Part shown: positions 9,515 through 37,585 of the stretch, piece after piece | Layout: every line of letters starts with the position of its first letter | Position numbering within the stretch: the first letter of the stretch is position 1 | From: Azospirillum canadense | GTDB lineage: Bacteria > Pseudomonadota > Alphaproteobacteria > Azospirillales > Azospirillaceae | DNA length: 64,000 nt | NCBI RefSeq assembly: GCF_025961225.1 | Contig: NZ_JAOQNG010000009.1 | Coordinates: 209,162-273,161 of the forward strand | Reading direction: 5' to 3' | Notes under the pieces: model-generated | The model's input: only the letters and a program-made list of their open reading frames with translations | The model's database searches: none | Told to the model about the DNA's origin: nothing | Made by a program: the position numbers and the translations under genes

Positions 9515-9955
9515 ATGGATGTCACCGAACTCCACAGAATTCCTGACAGACCCGATTCCGACGCCCTCTCCGCCGACACCGCCAAGCTCCTCTATCGCGC
9601 CATCCTCATCGCCGACCGCCGCGAAGCCCTCCGCGCCCAGGCCTTCGCCGCCGCGATCGACGCCGGCCCCCTGCCCGACGACGAGCACCTCCGCACCCTC
9701 GCCGATGACCCGACCTGGGGCCTCACCGACCCCATGACCGAGTGGACACTCGCCATCACCCCGGCCCACGACCATGGCCTGTCCTGTTTCATGACGGTTG
9801 ATCCATTCGTGTCGAACCCGACACCACGCACTCGCGCACCCGCTCGCGCCGGCCGCGCTATTCTCTCAACGGCGGAATCGTCCCATCCTACCCATCCGGC
9901 GGCCCTCGCAGGACACCATCGTCCGCCACATCCCCATAGTGCCGCCGCTCCATAA
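9515..9955 (+). CDS. hypothetical protein
   Basis: A 146-residue frame starting MDVTELHRIPDRPDSDALSA. The first ~95 residues have ordinary composition (AKLLYRAILIADRREALRAQ); the remainder is Pro/His/Arg-rich and may be read-through into non-coding DNA. No family recognised and the Shine-Dalgarno is weak. It converges on the 202-residue gene at 10082-10690. Confidence 0.35.
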   Translation: MDVTELHRIPDRPDSDALSADTAKLLYRAILIADRREALRAQAFAAAIDAGPLPDDEHLRTLADDPTWGLTDPMTEWTLAITPAHDHGLSCFMTVDPFVSNPTPRTRAPARAGRAILSTAESSHPTHPAALAGHHRPPHPHSAAAP

Positions 9956-10081
9956 TCCGATCCCAGACGGGCCTGCCGTCCAGCCCAGGCACCACAGCCG
10001 CACCGGATGTCCCCTCATCGCCCCGCGACGCCACCACCTCCACCACCACCCTCGCGCGAGGCTTAGGCTTCGGCCCCAACG

Positions 10082-10690
10082 TCAGCCCCCCGCCCACGCT
10101 CCCGCCAGCTCCCGCCCCCGCCGTTCCGACACCCATACCCCCCGGCGCGCGCGCCACCTCATCCCGCTTCGCCGTGACCACGCCGCCACCATCCGCCGCC
10201 CGCCCAGCGCCGCCCGCCACCCATCCGACGCCTCCCGTACCCCCAGGGGCTCCGCCCCCGCCCCAACACCATTCCCGTCCCCCGACGCGCACGCCCGCTT
10301 GATGGCGCGCCACGTCCCCCGCCCGGCCCGCTTGTCACGCTCGGTTTTATAGAGACACATGACGGTCTTCACGGACCAAGCCGCTCCACCGGACAGCGGC
10401 ACCCGCGACTGCTTCAGAAGGGCGACGATGTGCTTCCACTTCCAGCCAGCGGCCCGCATCGTCGTGATCTCATCGTACAGGCGTTGTATCCAGCGCGCCG
10501 CCCCCATCCCATCGCGAGATGGCTTCTGCGGGCTGGCGGGAGGCGTGAACTGTCGCGCCAGTGCCACGAAGCGCTCAGTGACCACCTCCGCGGCTTTCTC
10601 CTCGTCCACTCGGCTCGGACCACCAGCCACGCAACCCCTCCGCGCCTTGCACGGGCGGCGCTCGATTGCTCCGCCACCCATTTTTCCCAT
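10082..10690 (-). CDS. putative plasmid-borne DNA-binding/accessory protein
   Basis: Start ATG 10690 (MGKMGGGAIERRP) with GAAGGGGAG upstream. The central part (VVTERFVALARQFTPP, then RWIQRLYDEITTMRAAGWKW and KHIVALLKQSRVPLSGGAAW, SVKTVMCLYKTERDKR) looks like a helix-turn-helix segment of the kind found in small proteins near plasmid mobilisation or replication genes. The C-terminus becomes low-complexity. An overlapping frame at 9888-10313 ends in a more natural-looking tail (GLDGRPVWDRIMERRHYGDV), so a frameshift near 10250-10300 is possible. The GTNGTCGC array begins 40 bp upstream. Function not established. Confidence 0.45.
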   Translation of the reverse strand: MGKMGGGAIERRPCKARRGCVAGGPSRVDEEKAAEVVTERFVALARQFTPPASPQKPSRDGMGAARWIQRLYDEITTMRAAGWKWKHIVALLKQSRVPLSGGAAWSVKTVMCLYKTERDKRAGRGTWRAIKRACASGDGNGVGAGAEPLGVREASDGWRAALGGRRMVAAWSRRSGMRWRARRGVWVSERRGRELAGAWAGG

Positions 10691-10730
10691 AACCCACTCC
10701 CCTTCGGCCTCGCAGCACATTTCACGTCGC

Positions 10731-10929
10731 GTGGTCGCACTCTCCACTCGCCTGCGTGGTCGTGCGTGGTCGCTCCGTTGTCGCGCCTGTGGTCGCGCGT
10801 GGTCGCGCCCGTTGTCGCTCGCGTGGTCGCACCCGTTGTCGCTCGCGTGGTCGCCTGTGTCGCGCGTGGTCGCATCGTAGTCGGCACGTGGTCGGCGCAC
10901 GGTCGCCACCGTAGTCGCATCGTTGTCGC
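10731..10929. repeat. helically phased array of GTNGTCGC-type repeats
   Basis: About 17 degenerate octamers of the form GT(G/T/A)GTCG(C/G/T) in one orientation, starting at about 10731, 10756, 10766, 10777, 10789, 10799, 10811, 10823, 10835, 10847, 10866, 10877, 10888, 10898 (degenerate), 10911 and 10922. Another degenerate copy lies near 10857. Spacing is mostly 10-12 bp, about one helical turn. That is not a multiple of three, so it is not a coding repeat. The layout resembles an iteron or operator array upstream of the minus-strand gene starting at 10690. Confidence 0.7.
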
Positions 10930-10946
10930 GCTCCACAGGCGCCGCC

Positions 10947-11177
10947 TCAGTTGGCCTCCTCCACCACGTCCATCGCCACGCCGCGCCCCATCTCCGTCCG
11001 TACTTTCTCCACCAACGCGTGCATCAACCGCCCCCCCAGAATCGCCCGCGCGCGGCGCCTTCGGCGCCGCGTTTGGTCGCCCACGCCTCGCCTCCAGCCC
11101 AGCGCCAACTGCGCCACCTCCTCACGACGCCGCGTCACGCCACACCGCCGGTGCAAGCGCGTGGACAGCCACCACAC
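10947..11177 (-). CDS. possible small hypothetical protein
   Basis: A frame of up to 76 residues ending ILGGRLMHALVEKVRTEMGR plus GVAMDVVEEAN. The last ~35 residues have protein-like composition, while the first part is Arg-rich. It ends close to the distal end of the GTNGTCGC array. No family recognised; could be chance. Confidence 0.25.
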   Translation of the reverse strand: MWWLSTRLHRRCGVTRRREEVAQLALGWRRGVGDQTRRRRRRARAILGGRLMHALVEKVRTEMGRGVAMDVVEEAN

Positions 11178-12310
11178 GCATTTTCACCAAGATCAACGTC
11201 TTCGCCTGAATCGGCTCGACGTCATAACGCGCATCGCTTCAGCAACGGACGGCCTCAACCTGGCTCCATCACGCCACCAACGCGGCCGCTTCTCGCCTTC
11301 TCAGCGCGCTGATCAGCACGTCGCAACGGCACAGGCGTCAGCGTCTCCAGACCGTGTCAACACGTTGATCGGCCTGCATTTTCGCGACGTCGCAAGGTCG
11401 CAGGTTCACCATCTCCAGCACGACATCATCACAGCCAACCAGCACGATCGCGCAGTCACAGATCAGCGCATCAGGGCGCCATTTATGCATCTGCAGCGCA
11501 GGTCGCACGCGGCATCAGCGCCAGGTGGCGCTGTGTCAGGTCACGGCTCATGAAAAGCACGCCACGTCTGGGCAGGCACAGCGTCGGCACCGTTCAATCA
11601 AGCGACAGCGGCACAGGTCACGCATCGTCAACGCCAGCCTCGCTCGGTCAGGTCACGTCTCGCGGGCAGCGCGCCAGCTACTCGGAGTTGTGCGGAAGCG
11701 GCGAGGAGGCGGGAGGTGGCGGCCTACGGCATTGGTCATCACACCTGTGCATCAATTTGCACGGACTTTCCGGGTAAGTTCTCTTAAGATTCCAATAATT
11801 TCAAAGCATTAACGGATTTTTGGCAGGAGCTGCGATAGCCCAGGCGCTCTGGAACATGCAAAAAAAATGGTGCAGCGCTCTGCTTGAACAACTTGTACGT
11901 AGGAGCGAGCCAAGCTTTTGAGTTTATAGGGTTTTTTCTTTGTCAGGAAAACCCCTGCATATTGATGCACAGGTGTGACGATCAAGAAGAGGACACGACC
12001 TGCACCATAGACTGCTTCCATTGCGCACAAAGCCGCCCAGCGGTGATGCGCGCCCTGCCCTGCGTTGTCGCACCGTCGTCCACCCATGGCTGCCCGCTGT
12101 CGCGACTTGGTAGCGCGTTGTCAGCCCCGTTGTCCTATTGTCTGCCCCGCCTCCCACCCCATGCAGCTCTTCGCTCAAGCCCTATCACCATCCGCCACTT
12201 CCGTGACCCGGACGCGGGACTGCCAAGAGTTTGGGGGTGTTGTGCCGGGCAGGCTATGATCGGTCGGGTCTGTCACCGTCAAGGGATCGGGAATGGGGTG
12301 GGTGTTGTGC
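11178..12310. other. long region without recognised gene
   Basis: About 1.1 kb with no convincing coding frame. It contains scattered CGTCA/GTCGC-rich direct motifs (11220-11660), an AT-rich island bounded by inverted repeats (separate entry) and a second loose cluster of GTTGTC/GTCGTC motifs at about 12065-12150. Together with the array at 10731 this looks like a cis-acting region rather than decayed genes. Confidence 0.5.
11739..11978. repeat. AT-rich island flanked by 18-bp perfect inverted repeats
   Basis: TCACACCTGTGCATCAAT at 11739-11756 recurs as its exact reverse complement at 11961-11978. The ~204 bp between them are much richer in A/T than the surroundings, with A8, T6 and TTAAGATTCCAATAATTTC tracts, and contain no credible gene. 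A small non-autonomous element or an origin/transfer cis-site are both possible. Confidence 0.55.
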
Positions 12311-12408: not shown

Positions 12409-13253
12409 TCCGCCCCGCAGGCGGTGTGTTCGGTGACAGGATGTGGTCATCGCGCATCTTCGGTAAGGTCAAGTTGCGACACGCGATCACAACCAAGGAC
12501 ACGACGATGACCGACGACAGAATGGCACTGATCGAGCAAATCCAGAAGAGCACGGACGGCGATTTCCTGCGCGCCGTCGCCGAGCACACGCTGCACCGGC
12601 TGATGGACTTCGAGGTCGAGGCGCTGATCGGCGCCGCCCGGCACGAGCGCAGCGACACGCGCACCACCTACCGCAACGGCTCGCGCCCGCGCCAGCTCGA
12701 CACCCGGCTCGGCACGCTGGACCTGAAGATCCCCAAGCTGCGCCAGGGCAGCTATTTCCCGGCCTTTCTGGAGCCGCGCAAGACCGCGGAGAAGGCGCTC
12801 ACCGCGGTCATCCAGGAAGCCTGGATTCAGGGCGTCTCCACGCGCAAGGTCGATGACCTGGTGCAAGCGCTGGGCATGACCGGCATCTCCAAGTCCCAGG
12901 TCTCGGCGCTGTGCCAGGACATCGACACCCGCGTGCAGTCCTTCCTGGAGCGCCCGCTGGAGGGCGAGTGGCCGTACCTCTGGCTGGATGCCACCTACCT
13001 GAAGGTCCGCCAGGACGGCCGCATCGTCTCGATCGCCGCGATAATCGCCACCGGCGTCAATCAGGATGGCCGCCGCGAAATCCTCGGCCTCGGGCTGGGG
13101 CAGTCGGAAGCGGCCATCTTCTGGATCGCGTTCCTGCGCTCGCTGGTGCGGCGCGGGCTGCAGGGCGTGAAGCTGGTGATCTCCGATGCCCATGAGGGGC
13201 TGAAGGCGGCGATCAGTCAGGTGCTGAGCGCCACCTGGCAGAGGTGCCGTGTT

Positions 13254-13273
13254 CACACGATCCGAACGCAATC
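13254..13273. repeat. left attachment site (core CA plus element arm)
   Basis: Core dinucleotide CA (13254-13255) followed by the element arm CACGATCCGAACGCAATC (13256-13273). The arm is the reverse complement of the right arm at 16592-16609. The outer flank is IS256 A transposase coding sequence. Confidence 0.75.
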
Positions 13274-13973
13274 CACCAATCGGCTCAGCTGTCGGGTCCC
13301 GGCCGGGTGGCGGGCTGTGCAGCGGGATGACATGGCGGATCTCCAAGCTGTCGTCATGGACGATGATGCGCTCGATGACGAGTTGCAAGATGGCCTGCTT
13401 GTCAGCAAGAGAGGCGTCGTCCAGCCGTTCCCGAACACGCGCGCAGAAGGCCGTCAGCTCGCCCACGACCTCTTGCGCCTTGGCGCGTTGGCCACGTAGA
13501 ACGCGCTGTTGCTGCTGTTGGTGTTCCAGCGCGCGCCGTTGGTCGGCGACCTGCTGGCGCCGCTCGGTCAACTCCTCCAAGCTGATCACCGCCGCCTGAT
13601 AGGCATCAAGCAGGCGTTGGTCGGCGCGGGCAAGCCCGCCAAGGCGCCCGGCGATCCGCTGCTCGGCCCGCTGCTCCTGGGCTGCATGGTGGTCGGCCTC
13701 GTCAGCAAACTGCTGGAATTGGGCCACCAGCTGATCGGGCGCTTCGAGCAGGCCGCGGACATGCTCCCAGACCGCGCGTTCGAGATCGTCGGCGTTCACG
13801 CAGGCGCGCGGACAGGGCTGTGCACGGGCGGTTTCCAACCAGTCCTTGCCGGCGCACCGGTAGTAGCGGCGCCCGCCGGGGCGGACGGTGCCGAACATGG
13901 TGAGGCCGCAGGCGCTACACGTCAGCAAGCAGCGCAGAAGGTAAGTGTGCTTGGTGTTGTTGCGGAACGACAG

Positions 13974-15399
13974 GATCGCGTCCCACCGCGTGGTGTCTGA
14001 GGCGTGAGGCTGGCCCGCCGGAGCGCTCCCCCATAGCTGGCGCAGGCGGGCCGGCCGTTCGGGAGCGGCGGTCACCGTGTTCTTCGGCTAAGTTGAGGTT
14101 GCTTAACGACCATCAACCAAGACGGAGACCACGATGACCGAGGACAGGATCGCTCTTCAGGAGCTGATTGGGAAGAGCGCCGATGCCGACTTTCTGCGCG
14201 AGATGGTCGGCTTCGCCGCCCAGCGCCTGATGGAGCTGGAGGTGGAGAGCCTGTGCGGCGCCGGGTATGGCGAACGCAGCGAGGACCGCCAGACCAAGCG
14301 CAACGGCTACCGGGAGCGGACCTGGGAGACGCGCGCCGGGGCCATCGACCTGCGCATCCCCAAGCTGCGGCGCGGCTCCTACTTCCCGGCCTTCCTGGAG
14401 CCGCGCCGCACCGCGGAGAAGGCGCTAATCGCGGTGATTCAGGAGGCCTACGTGCAGGGCATCTCGACGCGCAACGTCGATGATCTGGTCAAGGCGATGG
14501 GCATGACCGGCATCTCCAAGAGCCAGGTCAGCCGCCTGTGCCAGGACATCGACGAGCGCGTGCAGGCGTTCCTGAACCGGCCGCTGGAAGGCGACTGGCC
14601 CTTTGTGTGGCTGGATGCGACCTACGTGAAAGTGCGCCAGGACGGCCGCATCGTCTCGCTCGCCGCCATACTGGCCATCGGCGTCAACAGCGATGGCCGG
14701 CGCGAGGTGCTGGGGCTCGGCCTCGGGCTGTCGGAAGCCGAGACCTTCTGGACCGATTTCCTGCGCACCCTCACCCGCCGGGGCCTACGCGGCGTAAAGC
14801 TGGTGATCGCCGATGCGCATCTCGGGCTGAAGGCCGCCGCTTCCAAGGTGCTGGGCGCCACACTTCAACGCTGTCGTGTTCATTGCATGAGGAATCTCCT
14901 CGCCTGCGTCGGCAAGGCGCACCAGACGATGGTCGCGGCCACCATTCGCACCGCCTTTGCCCAGGAGACCGCTGAGGCGGCGCATGAGCAGTGGCGCCGG
15001 GTGGCCGACAGCCTGCGGCCGCGCTTTTCCAAGCTGGCGGCGCTGATGGACGAGGCGGAGTTCGACGTGCTGGCCTACATGAAGTACCCCAAGGACCTGC
15101 GCACCAAATTGCACAGCACGAATCCTCTGGAGCGGCTGAATGGCGAGATCAAGCGGCGCACCAACGTCGTCGGCATCTTCCCTGGCGAAGGGGCGGTTGT
15201 GCGCCTCGTCGGCGCCTTGCTGCTGGAGCAGCATGATGAATGGGCGGTGGCCCGGCGCTACATGACCATGGAAAGCCTGGCCGAGCTGTGCCACCCTCAC
15301 ACCCCTGATCCGCTGTCCATCGCAGCGGAGTAGACCGGCGGCCTCAACCCGCCGAAGAGCACAGAGGCCCCCTCAGACACCACGCCTCGGGGCACGATC
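13974..15399 (+). mobile_element. IS256-family element B, complete
   Basis: 1,426 bp flanked by a perfect 8-bp target duplication AACGACAG (13966-13973 and 15400-15407), inside the serine recombinase gene. Inverted repeats: the left end starts GATCGCGTCCCACCGCGTGG and the right, read inward, GATCGTGCCCCGAGGCGTGG. Both continue TGTCTGAGG. Removing the element and one duplication rejoins the recombinase frame at T-L-S-F without loss. It has a different terminal repeat from element A. Confidence 0.92.
14134..15333 (+). CDS. IS256-family transposase B, intact
   Basis: A 399-residue mutator-type transposase starting MTEDRIALQELIGKSADADF after GGAGACCACG. The frame is complete, with WLDATYVKVRQDGRIVSLAA, IADAHLGLKAAA, RCRVHCMRNLLACVGK and KLHSTNPLERLNGEIKRRTN, covering the DDE catalytic region. 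It is clearly homologous to but diverged from transposase A. Element B is complete and could mobilise itself. Confidence 0.92.
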   Translation: MTEDRIALQELIGKSADADFLREMVGFAAQRLMELEVESLCGAGYGERSEDRQTKRNGYRERTWETRAGAIDLRIPKLRRGSYFPAFLEPRRTAEKALIAVIQEAYVQGISTRNVDDLVKAMGMTGISKSQVSRLCQDIDERVQAFLNRPLEGDWPFVWLDATYVKVRQDGRIVSLAAILAIGVNSDGRREVLGLGLGLSEAETFWTDFLRTLTRRGLRGVKLVIADAHLGLKAAASKVLGATLQRCRVHCMRNLLACVGKAHQTMVAATIRTAFAQETAEAAHEQWRRVADSLRPRFSKLAALMDEAEFDVLAYMKYPKDLRTKLHSTNPLERLNGEIKRRTNVVGIFPGEGAVVRLVGALLLEQHDEWAVARRYMTMESLAELCHPHTPDPLSIAAE

Positions 15400-16591
15400 A
15401 ACGACAGCGTGGCATTGCGCGCCAACTGGGCTTGCGCCCGGTCCCAGGTCTCCTGGTCGATGAGGGCCGGCACGGCGATCGGAATCCACTCCTCCTTTGG
15501 CCGGAGCCGGCGGCACCCGACGCCTGAGTAACTGGGCTTGCGCGTGCGGGGTTTCGTGGCCGGCACGTACTCATAGCGGTTCGAGTAGGCGGTGCCCGTG
15601 TAGACCGGGTCGGACAGGATGTGATGAACGGTCGAGGGCGACCAGGGACGTCGGCCGCAGCGCGGAAACCAGGGACCGAAGTTCAGGCGCTTGAGGATCT
15701 GGCGCAGGCTCATCCGCTCCTCGGTCAGCCAGCCATAGAGCAGACGGACGAGGTCCGCTTCGGCGTCATCGATGACCAGACGCCCGGGCGCCCCCTCGTG
15801 CCGCGGCAGGTAGCGGTAGCCGTAGGGGGCACGGCCCCCGACGAATTGGCCAGCCCGCGCCTTCTGGAGCTTGCCGCGGCGGAACCGCTCGCCCAGCAGG
15901 GCGCGCTCATACTCGGCCACGGCGCCCTGGATCTGCAGGAGGAGCTGATCGCCGGGATCGTCGGAGATCGCATGGTTGAGAAAGGCCACCGCGCAGCCCG
16001 CCCGGCGGAACTCTTCCAGAAGCAGTGCCTGGTAGACATAGCGCCGGGCCAGACGATCCGGGGCCAGGACGGCCACGATCTCCACCTCGCCGTCGCGCAC
16101 CGCATCGCGCAGAGCATCCAGCCCCGGCCGATCGAGGCGAGAGCCGCTGTAGCCTTCGTCGCGAAAGACGTGGCGGTCGCTCAAGTCATGATCGTTGGCG
16201 CCGGCCCAGGCGCGCAGGGCGGTGAGCTGGCTGTCGATGGTCTGCTGGCGTTCCTGACGCTCGGTGGAGACGCGGGCATAGATGGCGGCGCGCATGATGC
16301 TTCTCCCTCGGTCAAGCCGGCGGTCGCCGCTGGCCGTGATTCCGCAACGGGGACGAGAAGGCGGCGGTAGGTGTCGGCCAACCGATCCGGCCCGTCGCGG
16401 GTCCGGACGAAGACGGAGTGGATGGTCCAAATCGCTGGCGTCGGGGGCTGTCGATGATGCGGCATGGGCAGACATCTCCGTAGTGGAGGTGTCCGCCAAA
16501 CAGTCGGCCCCGGTGGTCACTGGCGACGGTGTCGCGATTTGGCCAGGTGCGGCCAAGCAAACGCCAGCGTGACCGTGAAGTGGATTCGGTC

Positions 16592-16611
16592 GATTGCGTT
16601 CGGATCGTGCA
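16592..16611. repeat. right attachment site (element arm plus core CA)
   Basis: GATTGCGTTCGGATCGTG (16592-16609) followed by CA (16610-16611) and then IS256 A coding sequence (TTTCCTTCGC). Paired with the left site it would give a symmetric circular junction, arm-CA-arm. The non-palindromic core would fix orientation. Confidence 0.75.
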
Positions 16612-17162
16612 TTTCCTTCGCTCGCTGCTCTGTCACGTGCCCAAGGGGCAGCAGACCGTGGTGTCGGCCGCCGTGCGCCAAGTCTTCGTGCAGCCCGACC
16701 GCAAGAGCGCCGGGGAGGTCTGGCGCCATGTCGCCGATCAGCTGCGGGCGCGCTTTCCCAAGCTGGCAGCACTACTCGACGACGCTGAGCACGACGTCCT
16801 CGCTTACATGGACTATCCCGAGGCGCACCGCACCAAGCTACACTCGACGAATCCTCTTGAACGTCTCAACAAGGAAGTCAAACGCCGCACCGATGTTGTT
16901 GGTATATTCCCAAATGAGGAAAGCGTTCGAAGGCTGGTCGGTGCAATTCTGCTGGAACAGAACGATGACTGGCAGCTCCAGCACCGTTACCTGACACTCG
17001 AAACCATGGCGGGGATCGCCGCATCCGACGAGCCCGTCATCACACCGCTCCCCTCAACAAAGGCGGCCTGAGCGACGACGCACCTGACCACCTTCCAATT
17101 TCCACCACCTTGACGGACGTGACCGTTGTGGTTGTGTGCTGATAGAGAGCGGGGTCGATGGT

Positions 17163-31476: not shown

Positions 31477-32364
31477 TTATTCGCCGAGAAGAGCGTTGAT
31501 GCGGTCCCGCACGGCGCGCAGATGTGACCGATGGTCCTCGCCCAACAAGGCACGCCCTTGGTCCAGCCGGTCGATCTCCCCAACGATCTTCGTCACGCTT
31601 TGACCCAAGGCGCGCACGGTGACTGGGCGAGTACGGGCCGCAGTGGCGGTCTTCCCTGCGGCCTGAGCCTGCTTCTTCTCGGCCCGCAGATCACGCACGG
31701 TCAGACCGGCTTTGGCCCGATCCCACAAGGCACGCACCAGATCCGGATCGTCCAGGGTCGCGAGTTCGACCAGGACGGAACGGCTGACCGCGGAAGGGTC
31801 CGCTCGGTACTCGGCCACGATAGCGTCCGGCAGGCGCAGCACCGACAGGCGACGTGAGACTTCCGCTTCAGCGCAGCCAAGCATCGCGCCGACATCGCTC
31901 ATGCGGTAGCCATGCTGTTCCATCAAACGCTCCAGCCCGCGCGCCAGATCGATGGCATCAAGGTCCACGCGCTGCAGGTTTTCAATGAGCGCGATTTCCT
32001 CGGAGCGGCCTTGCGTGATGATCGCCGCGATCGTCGGGCGGCCAAGCAGTATGTGCGCTCGCCAACGCCGCTCACCGGCGACGAGGGTGTAGTGGCCCGG
32101 CGTGCCGGTCGTTTTGACAAGGATGGGCTGCTGCAGGCCGTGCTTATCGATGGAGTCTGCAAGCGAACGCAACGCATCATCATCGAACACGGTCCGCGGC
32201 TGGTCGGGGTTCGGGACGATCCGTTCGACGTCCGCCTCGATGAGGCGGGGCAGGGTACCGGACAGGCCGAACAGCTTATTTGTCTCGGCAGCATCCTCCC
32301 CTTCACGGGCAGCGGCCCCAGCCGTGATCTGCGCGCGCGTGGCGCGCTGGAACTTAGGCGCCAT
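31477..32364 (-). CDS. parB: ParB partition protein
   Basis: 295 residues. ParB/Sulfiredoxin-like N-domain: RLIEADVERIVPNPDQPRTV, LRSLADSIDKHGLQQPILVK, and the CTPase/box motif VAGERRWRAHILLGRPTIAA, with ALIENLQRVDLDAIDLARG. A KorB-like helix-turn-helix follows (YRMSDVGAMLGCAEAEVSRR) and a C-terminal dimerisation helix. ATG 32364 overlaps the parA end by 11 bp, so the two are co-translated. It would load on the nearby CTTACGACGTCGTAAG sites and interact with ParA. Confidence 0.92.
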   Translation of the reverse strand: MAPKFQRATRAQITAGAAAREGEDAAETNKLFGLSGTLPRLIEADVERIVPNPDQPRTVFDDDALRSLADSIDKHGLQQPILVKTTGTPGHYTLVAGERRWRAHILLGRPTIAAIITQGRSEEIALIENLQRVDLDAIDLARGLERLMEQHGYRMSDVGAMLGCAEAEVSRRLSVLRLPDAIVAEYRADPSAVSRSVLVELATLDDPDLVRALWDRAKAGLTVRDLRAEKKQAQAAGKTATAARTRPVTVRALGQSVTKIVGEIDRLDQGRALLGEDHRSHLRAVRDRINALLGE

Positions 32365-33391
32365 GCGTCACCTCCGGTGCCGGAGAGGTCTGTGCGAGTT
32401 GACCACCGCTCTGCATGAGGCTGCGGGCGATTTCCACGAACGTTTCGACGCCAGGAGCTCCAGGATCGCCGGCCAGCGTGATGGAGTTTGCGGCCGCTGC
32501 TTGGCTGTAGACGGTCGAGCGAGGTATTGGCTCGAACATGCGCGCCTGCTGCCCCCAGAGTGCTTGCAGATCATCGAGTGAAGCCCGGTCTTGCGACTGC
32601 CGCGCGGAATACATCGTTGGCACGATGCCGAGGATTTGCAGATCCGGATTGGAGCGTCGCCGGATCTTCGCGATTGTCTCGGAAAGATGTTCCAGACCAA
32701 GGATGGCGTGGGCCTCGGTTTGGCAGGGAATCAGCAGGTATTGGGCCGCGACGAGCGCATTCGACGTGATCATGCCAAGCGTTGGTGCGCAATCGATGAT
32801 GATGAAGTCGTAAACCTCCCTCATCGGTGCCAGCATATCGGCCATTGCGTTGATCCCCGTCGGCTCGTGATAGAGCTCCGCTTCGGCAGCGGCTAGGGCA
32901 ATGCTCGCCGGAATGAGGTCAAGGCTTGGCACATCAGTCGACAGAATGACGTCGGCGAGGGGCGACTTGCCAACCAATGCATGGTAATGCGTCTTGCCCT
33001 GTTTTGAGAGCTCGACAACGCGCGTCTGAGGAATGCCGACGTGGACAGTGGCGTTGCCCTGTGAATCCGCATCAACGAGCAGGACACGGTTGCCGGCTCG
33101 CGCCAGAACATAGCACAGATTGATGGCAGTGGCCGTTTTCGCCGTGCCACCCTTCTGCAAAGCGACGGCGACGGTTATGCCAAGGCCTCGACGCGGGGAA
33201 CGATCAACACCGAGGGCGGCGACCGACAGGGCTCCGAGAACCTCACGCGGCAGGCGTTCACGGTCGGTTTCCCACCGTGAAATCTTCTGCTTATCGTAAC
33301 GACGCCCCATCAGCTCGTTGAGCCAAGTGGCGAACTCGAGCTGTGTCATGTGCAGGCGTTCACGCAGTGCGCGAAGATCTTCCCCCGTCAC
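32354..33391 (-). CDS. parA: ParA partition ATPase with N-terminal HTH
   Basis: 345 residues. An N-terminal helix-turn-helix (LRERLHMTQLEFATWLNELM ... ISRWETDRERLP, residues 8-50) suits self-repression at its own promoter. A ParA/MinD ATPase follows with deviant Walker A KGGTAKT at 80-86, the DADSQGN switch and IIDCAPTLG. This is a type Ia-like plasmid ParA with parB overlapping downstream. Two parS palindromes lie 200-260 bp upstream, in the presumed promoter region. Confidence 0.92.
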   Translation of the reverse strand: MTGEDLRALRERLHMTQLEFATWLNELMGRRYDKQKISRWETDRERLPREVLGALSVAALGVDRSPRRGLGITVAVALQKGGTAKTATAINLCYVLARAGNRVLLVDADSQGNATVHVGIPQTRVVELSKQGKTHYHALVGKSPLADVILSTDVPSLDLIPASIALAAAEAELYHEPTGINAMADMLAPMREVYDFIIIDCAPTLGMITSNALVAAQYLLIPCQTEAHAILGLEHLSETIAKIRRRSNPDLQILGIVPTMYSARQSQDRASLDDLQALWGQQARMFEPIPRSTVYSQAAAANSITLAGDPGAPGVETFVEIARSLMQSGGQLAQTSPAPEVTHGA

Positions 33392-36140: not shown

Positions 36141-37097
36141 TCAGCCAAGCAACAGGGAGCCCTGGCGCGGCGCGGCGATTTCACGCTCGGGAATCGGCGG
36201 CTTCGACGGATACAGAACCACACCCTGGTCGTCGATGGTGACCTGAGCGTCCGGATAGACGACCATGGCCATCTTCAGAACATCGGGGAACTTGTACTTG
36301 AACTGGGCGCGGGTGCGATAGGCCGCCCCGAATTGCGCGTGCAGCGCTGCCCAGCTGACTGGCGTCGGGCCGGTCAGGACGTGCAGTCGGTAGGCGAGCC
36401 ACACATAGACGTCGATCGCCATGGACTGGTTGATGATGTGGCGCAGAGCCGGTTCCCAGATCGGGACCGGATGTTCGCGTAGTGCCTTGTAAAAGCTCGG
36501 CGACAGACGGACCTTGTCGGTCCACAGCCGCGGCTGGCTCGGGTCATCGGTGTGCAGCTGGATGCCGCCGCCCTTGATGATGCTGTCCTTCTCGAACTCG
36601 CCGCGGCCGCCGGCGTTGTTCCACATGAAGGTCAGGTTGCAGGCCGATAGGCGGTTGGCCTGCTCACGAACGTCTTTGTAGGCTTGGCCGCCATTGCTGA
36701 GGCCCATTCGGTCCAGCCAATCGTTCATCGAGCGGCCCAGTTCCACCTCGGGCGAGTTGTTCTGCACGGCTTGGGTCTGCAGGTAAAGGAGGATAAGGCG
36801 TGCCCGGCTGCCGTATGGCACACCAAATTGTTTGCGTCCGCCGTTGCCGTCGGGCAGCCAGCCCGGTTGGACCACGAGCGTGACGTTGTGCCCCTTGCGC
36901 TCCCATTCCTGTTCGTCTGGCAGCTTCTTGTGGGGCAGGGCGGTCAGGCAGAAGCCGGAGTAGGTGATGCCGAGTGCGGTCGACTCCTCGGCCAGCACTG
37001 CCGCGGCGATGTCCACAAGGTTGCGATCCTTCACGTCGACCAGACGGCGAGCTTCGTCACGGCCGTGGGTTCGCACAAGCTGGTGGATCGAAGCCAT
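36141..37097 (-). CDS. repA: RepA-type plasmid replication initiator
   Basis: 318 residues from ATG 37097 (MASIHQLVRTHGRDEARRLV); AGGAAGG stands six bases before it, which argues against ATG 37103. The pattern ITYSGFCLTALPHKKLPDEQ, PYGSRARLILLYLQTQAVQN, VELGRSMNDWLDRMGLSNGG and MAIDVYVWLAYRLHVLTGPT fits the plasmid-encoded RepA family (PF04796-type) of alpha- and gammaproteobacterial iteron plasmids. It would bind the iterons upstream to open the origin. One inverted iteron 60 bp from its start suggests autorepression. Confidence 0.88.
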   Translation of the reverse strand: MASIHQLVRTHGRDEARRLVDVKDRNLVDIAAAVLAEESTALGITYSGFCLTALPHKKLPDEQEWERKGHNVTLVVQPGWLPDGNGGRKQFGVPYGSRARLILLYLQTQAVQNNSPEVELGRSMNDWLDRMGLSNGGQAYKDVREQANRLSACNLTFMWNNAGGRGEFEKDSIIKGGGIQLHTDDPSQPRLWTDKVRLSPSFYKALREHPVPIWEPALRHIINQSMAIDVYVWLAYRLHVLTGPTPVSWAALHAQFGAAYRTRAQFKYKFPDVLKMAMVVYPDAQVTIDDQGVVLYPSKPPIPEREIAAPRQGSLLLG

Positions 37098-37157
37098 GAT
37101 CATCCTTCCTGAACAGCACTGTCCGAAGGGTGGCCTGATTGCGGCGTCCTGTCCATT

Positions 37158-37585
37158 CGCGGTCTGGTGATGGGAGCTACTTGGAAGGCTAGTAGGATCT
37201 TCTAGTTGCTTAGTATCACCAGACAGCGGAGGAAAAGCCGAGTCGCGCCGATTCGTTCATCACAAGACCGCGAAGACGCATCACCAGACCGCGAGGGAAA
37301 AAGTGCTAGCGCGTGGGAGCCATTCACCGCCTGCGTCCGACTCGGGAATGCCATCACCAGACCGCGAACATGCCCATCACCAGACAGCGATCCCGCCTTG
37401 AACAGGTCCAAGACCCCTGATTGGTGGTCCTTTTGATCGTCCACACACCACATCGGCATCACCAGACCGCGATCCAACCCATCACCAGACCGCGACTATC
37501 ACCAGACCGCGAACACGCTGATCACCAGACAGCGATCTCGACGATCACCAGACAGCGATCTCGACGATCACCAGACAGCGAGTCT
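37158..37585. repeat. iteron origin of replication (oriV), 12 copies
   Basis: The 15-mer ATCACCAGAC(C/A)GCGA recurs at about 37217, 37258, 37279, 37352, 37376, 37460, 37480, 37498, 37520, 37544 and 37568 in one orientation (37258 has ATCACAAGAC). It occurs once inverted at 37158-37172 near the repA promoter. Spacings range from about 18 to 80 bp. The last three copies are identical 24-bp units. Typical of an iteron-regulated plasmid origin with RepA. Confidence 0.9.

Follow-up and report, generated by a model that had tools for sequence, protein, structure and literature searches.

In this report, we found a run of 17 short direct repeats, at positions 10731-10929 (+ strand) of the window, that is quite probably a stbDR-type binding site for StbA, unusually long for its kind and situated in the remnant of a transfer module. 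By “the window” we mean the whole stretch of DNA analysed, which is the final 64 kb of contig C9 (273 kb) in the Azospirillum canadense genome (9.73 Mb in 10 contigs). The StbA/stbDR kind of site was known before from plasmid R388; what is new is this long array as a further member. On this reading, an unnamed gene and the repeats beside it gain a testable role, and StbA/stbDR-type plasmid positioning, studied in R388, is extended to large multi-replicon alphaproteobacterial genomes.

Composition and spacing of the array

The repeats are GTNGTCGC-like octamers. Twelve exact copies of GTNGTCGC lie on the + strand inside 10731-10929, and the totals for the whole 64-kb window are 24 on the + strand and 12 on the - strand. 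When degenerate copies are counted in, there are 17 sites and one blank position near 10743; apart from this blank, the steps between sites are 9-12 bp, with a mean of 11.24 bp. GTCG is kept in 17/17 listed sites, and the site as read towards the gene is GCGACNAC. From the start of the first site to the end of the last, the array spans 10731-10929. The original prediction, made from the sequence, had described about 17 degenerate octamers on one strand, 10-12 bp apart, within these same bounds, and on these points it was in essence correct.

The array stands well clear of chance. Its chain score is 14.3, whereas the best of 1000 dinucleotide shuffles scores 9.0 (0/1000 reach the array), and the score of the array peaks at a step of 11. 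A plain word count gives 15 (shuffle maximum 8), the first chain test, in which no skipped sites were allowed, gives 13 (shuffle maximum 6), and the chain test with skipped sites at k=8 is reached by 0/100 shuffles. In the raw scan of the window, 10731-10929 is the top-scoring place, the runner-up being a C-rich stretch at 10.0-10.3 kb (score 12.1); Tandem Repeats Finder also reports the array. The reversed-letter reading scores the same by construction and is no control. Because the sites occur in all three reading frames, they are not a protein repeat, and the signal lies at the DNA level despite the frame upstream of the adjacent gene (10082-10690), which happens to be open; at the sister locus on contig C5, a stop stands four codons before the start. 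A blastn search of PLSDB with the array region returned eight records, seven of them Streptomyces lamin-tail genes, which we judged to be chance GC-rich matches. In a limited literature search, we recognised no paper describing these arrays.

One further claim, that all sites share a single face of the helix, did not survive in its simple form. The phase coherence of the sites is low at 10.5 bp/turn (R=0.20), and they come into register only near 11.2 bp (R=0.82). If the DNA were relaxed B-form, the sites would slip out of register by more than one turn from one end of the array to the other. Thus, the one-face claim requires undertwisted or wrapped DNA.

The StbA-like gene and its sister module

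The gene at 10082-10690 (- strand; P0001) encodes a putative StbA-like DNA-binding protein of 202 aa, a relative of the 318-aa product of a gene on C5. Its predicted helix-turn-helix part (about residues 61-121; 10328-10510, - strand) aligns with StbA of R388, and a single-sequence AlphaFold model, of low confidence (mean pLDDT 55), has three helices there. No match to the protein was found in Pfam (searched with a 284-aa reading of the gene frame), PHROGs or NCBIfam. In PLSDB, neither the window protein (tblastn) nor its C5 relative had a match. Among 82 genomes of the family, which were also those taken in by the gene-order search, the gene has one strong relative, the paralogue on C5 (E 8e-17, 42%); matches in six other family genomes are weak (E 3e-4 to 7e-3), and five of them contain internal stops.

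Profile comparisons connect this gene to StbA. A profile of 11 StbA-like proteins, from which R388 was left out, finds StbA of R388 (PDB 7pc1) with an E of 4.1e-11, the next chain being at 0.017, and a profile built from this genome's two proteins alone misses 7pc1, its best hit (E 0.14) being unrelated. When this genome's proteins are left out of the profile, the window gene comes out first among 1139 ORFs, with a modest E of 0.0023; the C5 gene is absent from the best 12 of the same 1139. In hhalign, this genome's pair matches the other StbA-like proteins with an E of 2.9e-5 (probability 74). We hold the kinship of the window gene with StbA with moderate confidence. Similarity to the C5 protein appears to continue in another frame at 9882-10301 (- strand), as found by tblastn without composition correction in Gly/Ala-rich sequence; once the correction is applied, this piece drops out. 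The tail of the window stbA is probably frameshifted, or else the assembly is in error, a reading that is suggestive only.

A class-wide search with the StbA profile gave matches in at least two of 385 genomes, one of them the genome studied here; since at most eight candidates were scored per genome, this search says little on frequency. Separately, we observed a single long chromosomal frame (771 aa; C1:1422283-1423581 of G000) in which a match to the StbA profile is followed by one to a StbB-like ATPase. Similar neighbouring pairs of matches occur, for example, on G007:C7, G010:C1 and G015:C1, and a StbA-StbB-like fusion is possibly common in the genus.

The C5 paralogue is part of a fuller module. 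It begins with the TrwC relaxase and a small ORF, continues through some 1 kb of oriT-like DNA and the 11-bp array, and ends with the stbA-like gene (318 aa) and a ParA/StbB-like ATPase gene (345 aa), an arrangement that is also that of R388. The ATPase has a weak CbiA/ParA signal; its match to NCBIfam StbB (E 1.4e-4, 21 bits) is far under the 200-bit cut-off, and hhalign of the ATPase set against StbB of R388 gives an E of 1.1e-4 (probability 56). On the other side, beyond the array and the oriT-like DNA, are a 238-aa ORF and then an 1857-aa TrwC relaxase-helicase (PF08751, E 2.7e-53). The latter is the sole TrwC match in the genome, and a scan of the contigs with the relaxase N-terminus found one weak locus. 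A VirB4-type gene (PF03135), the only type IV secretion family sought, was not found in the genome; thus C5 looks mobilisable, not self-transmissible. A few kb from this module (L046:27-2770) lie DpdA-like (PF23859) and PAPS-reductase-like genes, possibly a DNA-modification cluster.

The C5 array has other letters and is weaker. Its score is reached by 2/1000 shuffles and peaks at a step of 11, and its plain word count is 11 (shuffle maximum 9). It missed the first chain test, without skipped sites (4 versus a shuffle maximum of 8), and passed once skipped sites were allowed (0/100 at k=8, 2/1000). As the test was changed after the C5 letters had been viewed, this array is the weaker evidence. 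Further, C-rich stretches of the same locus score 10.8-14.5 in the raw scan, above the C5 array.

When the two loci are set side by side, the oriT-like flank is present in both, and the relaxase is present at C5 and absent in the window. The non-coding oriT-like region of the window (10976-11773) is 66% identical over 923 columns to the C5 DNA between array and relaxase side. By segment, one forced alignment of the two loci gives identities of 0.81 beside the array, 0.69 in the body and 0.87 at the hairpin end, as against 0.51 in the array and 0.45-0.59 in stbA, low values that may be near background in GC-rich DNA. From this difference, array and stbA appear to have diverged together between better conserved flanks.

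The conserved end contains a hairpin, CCTGTGCA...TGCACGG (11744-11764, + strand), found also at C5 and a candidate relaxase site. Its fold is weak alone: for 11738-11775, z is -1.4 and 23/200 shuffles fold as well. An inverted partial copy of this end (40 nt; 11946-11985, - strand) is 85% complementary to 11732-11771 and has a fold z of -3.4; for this copy and for the hairpin at C5, 2/200 shuffles each are as good. With up to two mismatches allowed, the hairpin word ACCTGTGCATCAATNTGCA has three genomic occurrences, one of them at C5 and the other two, inverted, in the window. We observe that 11732-11771 and 11946-11985 form an inverted pair around 174 nt, with two opposed hairpin words where C5 has one. 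A look-alike on A. lipoferum AZO_p1, spotted by eye, does not fold (180/200 shuffles as good). In view of this last result and of the 23/200 shuffles, the oriT reading is a proposal. According to PMC4853378, oriT regions are usually repeat-rich, and TrwC can act on an oriT unlike the R388 nic site.

Where C5 has its relaxase operon, the window has transposase and serine-recombinase genes (12426-16772), with no relaxase remnant by tblastn. Two Mutator-family transposases occur there, of which the first matches a portion of the profile; they are interleaved with pieces of serine recombinase on the opposite strand. Searched by tblastn with the C5 relaxase, ATPase and 238-aa ORF, the window yielded nothing better than E 0.027, and the StbB-like ATPase gene is absent downstream of stbA. 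With no adjacent relaxase or StbB gene and a stbA tail that is probably frameshifted, the window module looks like a remnant.

Similar modules were sought in 18 plasmid stretches (L053-L070), five picked by relaxase similarity and 13 by ATPase similarity. Eight of the 18 (L053, L057, L058, L059, L062, L063, L064 and L065) have the order mobF, small gene(s), gap, stbA-like gene, ATPase; the order in L053, which is without annotation, was taken from ORFs. Two of the five relaxase-picked stretches (L053 and L057) are in this set. Eleven of the 18 were tested for arrays; L054, L055, L056, L060, L066, L069 and L070 were left out because the stbA-like gene was not annotated or located at the expected place. 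At k=8, three of 13 alphaproteobacterial upstream regions stand out, namely those of the window, C5 and Komagataeibacter, and the other ten, A. lipoferum AZO_p1 included, have no clear array; R388, the positive control, scores 5.0 (2/100 shuffles reach it). At k=6, L061 is reached by 0/100 shuffles but has a low score (4.3), R388 by 9/100, and a control stretch of C5 oriT-like DNA by 1/100. The plain word count found nothing at L057 or L053. In Komagataeibacter nataicola (NZ_CP134888, L065:1170-1640), 26-28 TAACGT-like sites precede a stbA-like gene beside mobF, with a step of 11.3 bp and a coherence R of 0.91; 0/100 (k=8) and 0/1000 shuffles reach this array, which scores 9 in the first chain test (shuffle maximum 6).

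Possible functions of the array

We propose that the neighbouring helix-turn-helix protein would bind the array cooperatively, with about one unit per 11-bp step, and that the units may pack as a filament, undertwisting or wrapping the DNA. The coated array would repress stbA (autorepression), would contribute to keeping the plasmid copies distributed across the nucleoid, and would restrain transfer from the adjacent oriT until counteracted by the ATPase. Each replicon would have its own StbA/array pair, with private specificity. Because the relaxase and the StbB-like gene are missing beside the window array, and the stbA tail is probably frameshifted, the roles that may remain on C9 are autorepression, StbB-free positioning and mobilisation in trans by the C5 relaxase.

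The original prediction had offered, among its possibilities, a partition or incompatibility site and a cooperative regulator platform for the gene that starts at 10690. Both come near the reading supported here, in which they merge: a StbA-type array is a site of segregation and transfer control and is also an operator. The part that is unlikely is that of a main partition site. A canonical ParA/ParB pair is encoded on C9 at 31477-33391 and RepA (RepA_C, PF04796) at 36141-37103; the array is thus not next to the Rep gene and probably not the sole site of partition. Across the genome, there are nine ParB_N matches, one per contig on nine contigs, and none on C8.

The alternative that survives best, possible but in our opinion doubtful, is that the array is an autoregulatory operator and nothing else, such that a cooperative StbA-like coat represses its own gene and no segregation or transfer role is left here. 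The array is directly upstream of the gene, a separate ParAB is encoded on C9, neither relaxase nor StbB-like gene is present beside the array, and StbA of R388 lowers its own promoter 50-fold (PMC3937220). However, the same stbDR sites of R388 are described as serving both stability and transfer control (PMC3098194). Further, some 17 sites over 200 bp would exceed the need of an ordinary operator, and a scan of 10600-11000 found no sigma-70-like promoter.

Some centromeres of other partition types, such as ParR/parC, are also known to have direct repeats phased at about 11 bp. That the array is the centromere or incompatibility site of such a non-Stb partition system, or an orphan ParB-like site, is nevertheless improbable: the C5 partner is a ParA/CbiA-like Walker ATPase beside a TrwC relaxase and is not actin-like, no actin-like family was found among the neighbours scanned, and the canonical ParAB of C9 is 20 kb away. 

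Slightly less probable still is a functionless by-product of slippage in GC-rich DNA. The region is indeed GC-rich, the raw scan also gives high scores to C-rich stretches, and a search of relatives, suggested with the original prediction, did not find the letters of the array in the 81 other family genomes searched. As a check on conservation, the outcome is mixed, however: arrays with the same 11-bp step and other letters occupy the corresponding position at the C5 paralogue and in Komagataeibacter. Moreover, the steps range from 9 to 12 bp although every listed site retains GTCG, a pattern unlike plain slippage.

Least probable are iterons belonging to a second or ancestral origin of replication, as the original prediction had also suggested: the repeats are short, direct and on one strand, as in iteron origins, but their step is 11 bp and not about 22 bp, the adjacent gene resembles StbA and has no Rep match (Pfam, PHROGs, NCBIfam), and C9 has RepA with its own repeats at 36-37.6 kb, those reported by Tandem Repeats Finder at 37458-37581 being of the ATCACCAGACAGCGA type with periods of 23, 40 and 46 and, as had been noted, unlike the array.

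Returning to the array as a stbDR-type site, we tentatively raise a broader possibility. Some Rhodospirillales plasmids might carry a long-filament form of Stb, in which at least 17 StbA units occupy an unbroken array of 11.2-11.3 bp step, the step is set by filament geometry, and the letters (GCGACNAC, GCRGCAAC, TAACGT) change with the protein. Because letters and protein change together, such arrays would be private to each replicon within one cell, and an array-plus-oriT remnant could ride a co-resident relaxase while being positioned separately. Two arrays of the same step and different letters in one cell, each with a diverged StbA-like protein, would probe StbA specificity; the same pair would test for a DNA-wrapping filament behind the 11-bp step. 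From the relaxase-free copy one may learn how secondary replicons keep or lose mobility.

Comparison with known systems

Among the closest known systems is TraK-TraL/oriT of RP4 (IncP-1, MOBP). TraK is described in PMC3098194 as related to StbA and as binding the DNA that lies between nic and the traK gene; the relaxase family differs. A rhizobial paper compares its own system with StbA/StbB and, in the portion available, describes no arrays (PMC13055273).

Another is R388 (IncW, MOBF). As reported in PMC3098194, its stbDRs form two groups, each of five 9-bp repeats with 2-nt spacers, around the stbABC promoter. StbA, which binds these repeats, reduces conjugation and is required for stability; StbB is dispensable for stability but required for conjugation in the presence of StbA. 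Like R388, the modules described here have direct repeats of 11-bp step upstream of stbA, beside an oriT-like region and divergent from the relaxase side, a putative helix-turn-helix StbA and, on C5, a Walker ATPase downstream. Unlike R388, with its two sets of five TTGCATCAT repeats, the window has one run of 17 GCGACNAC-like sites and neither an adjacent relaxase nor StbB, and the proteins are only distantly alike.

The MobF plasmid of K. nataicola (NZ_CP134888) resembles the window in its long 11-bp array in the gap, followed by a stbA-like gene; the ATPase is next, and the plasmid order begins with mobF, small gene and gap. It differs in that its 26-28 TAACGT-like sites, of 11.3-bp step, lie in AT-rich DNA, and in that its relaxase is present.
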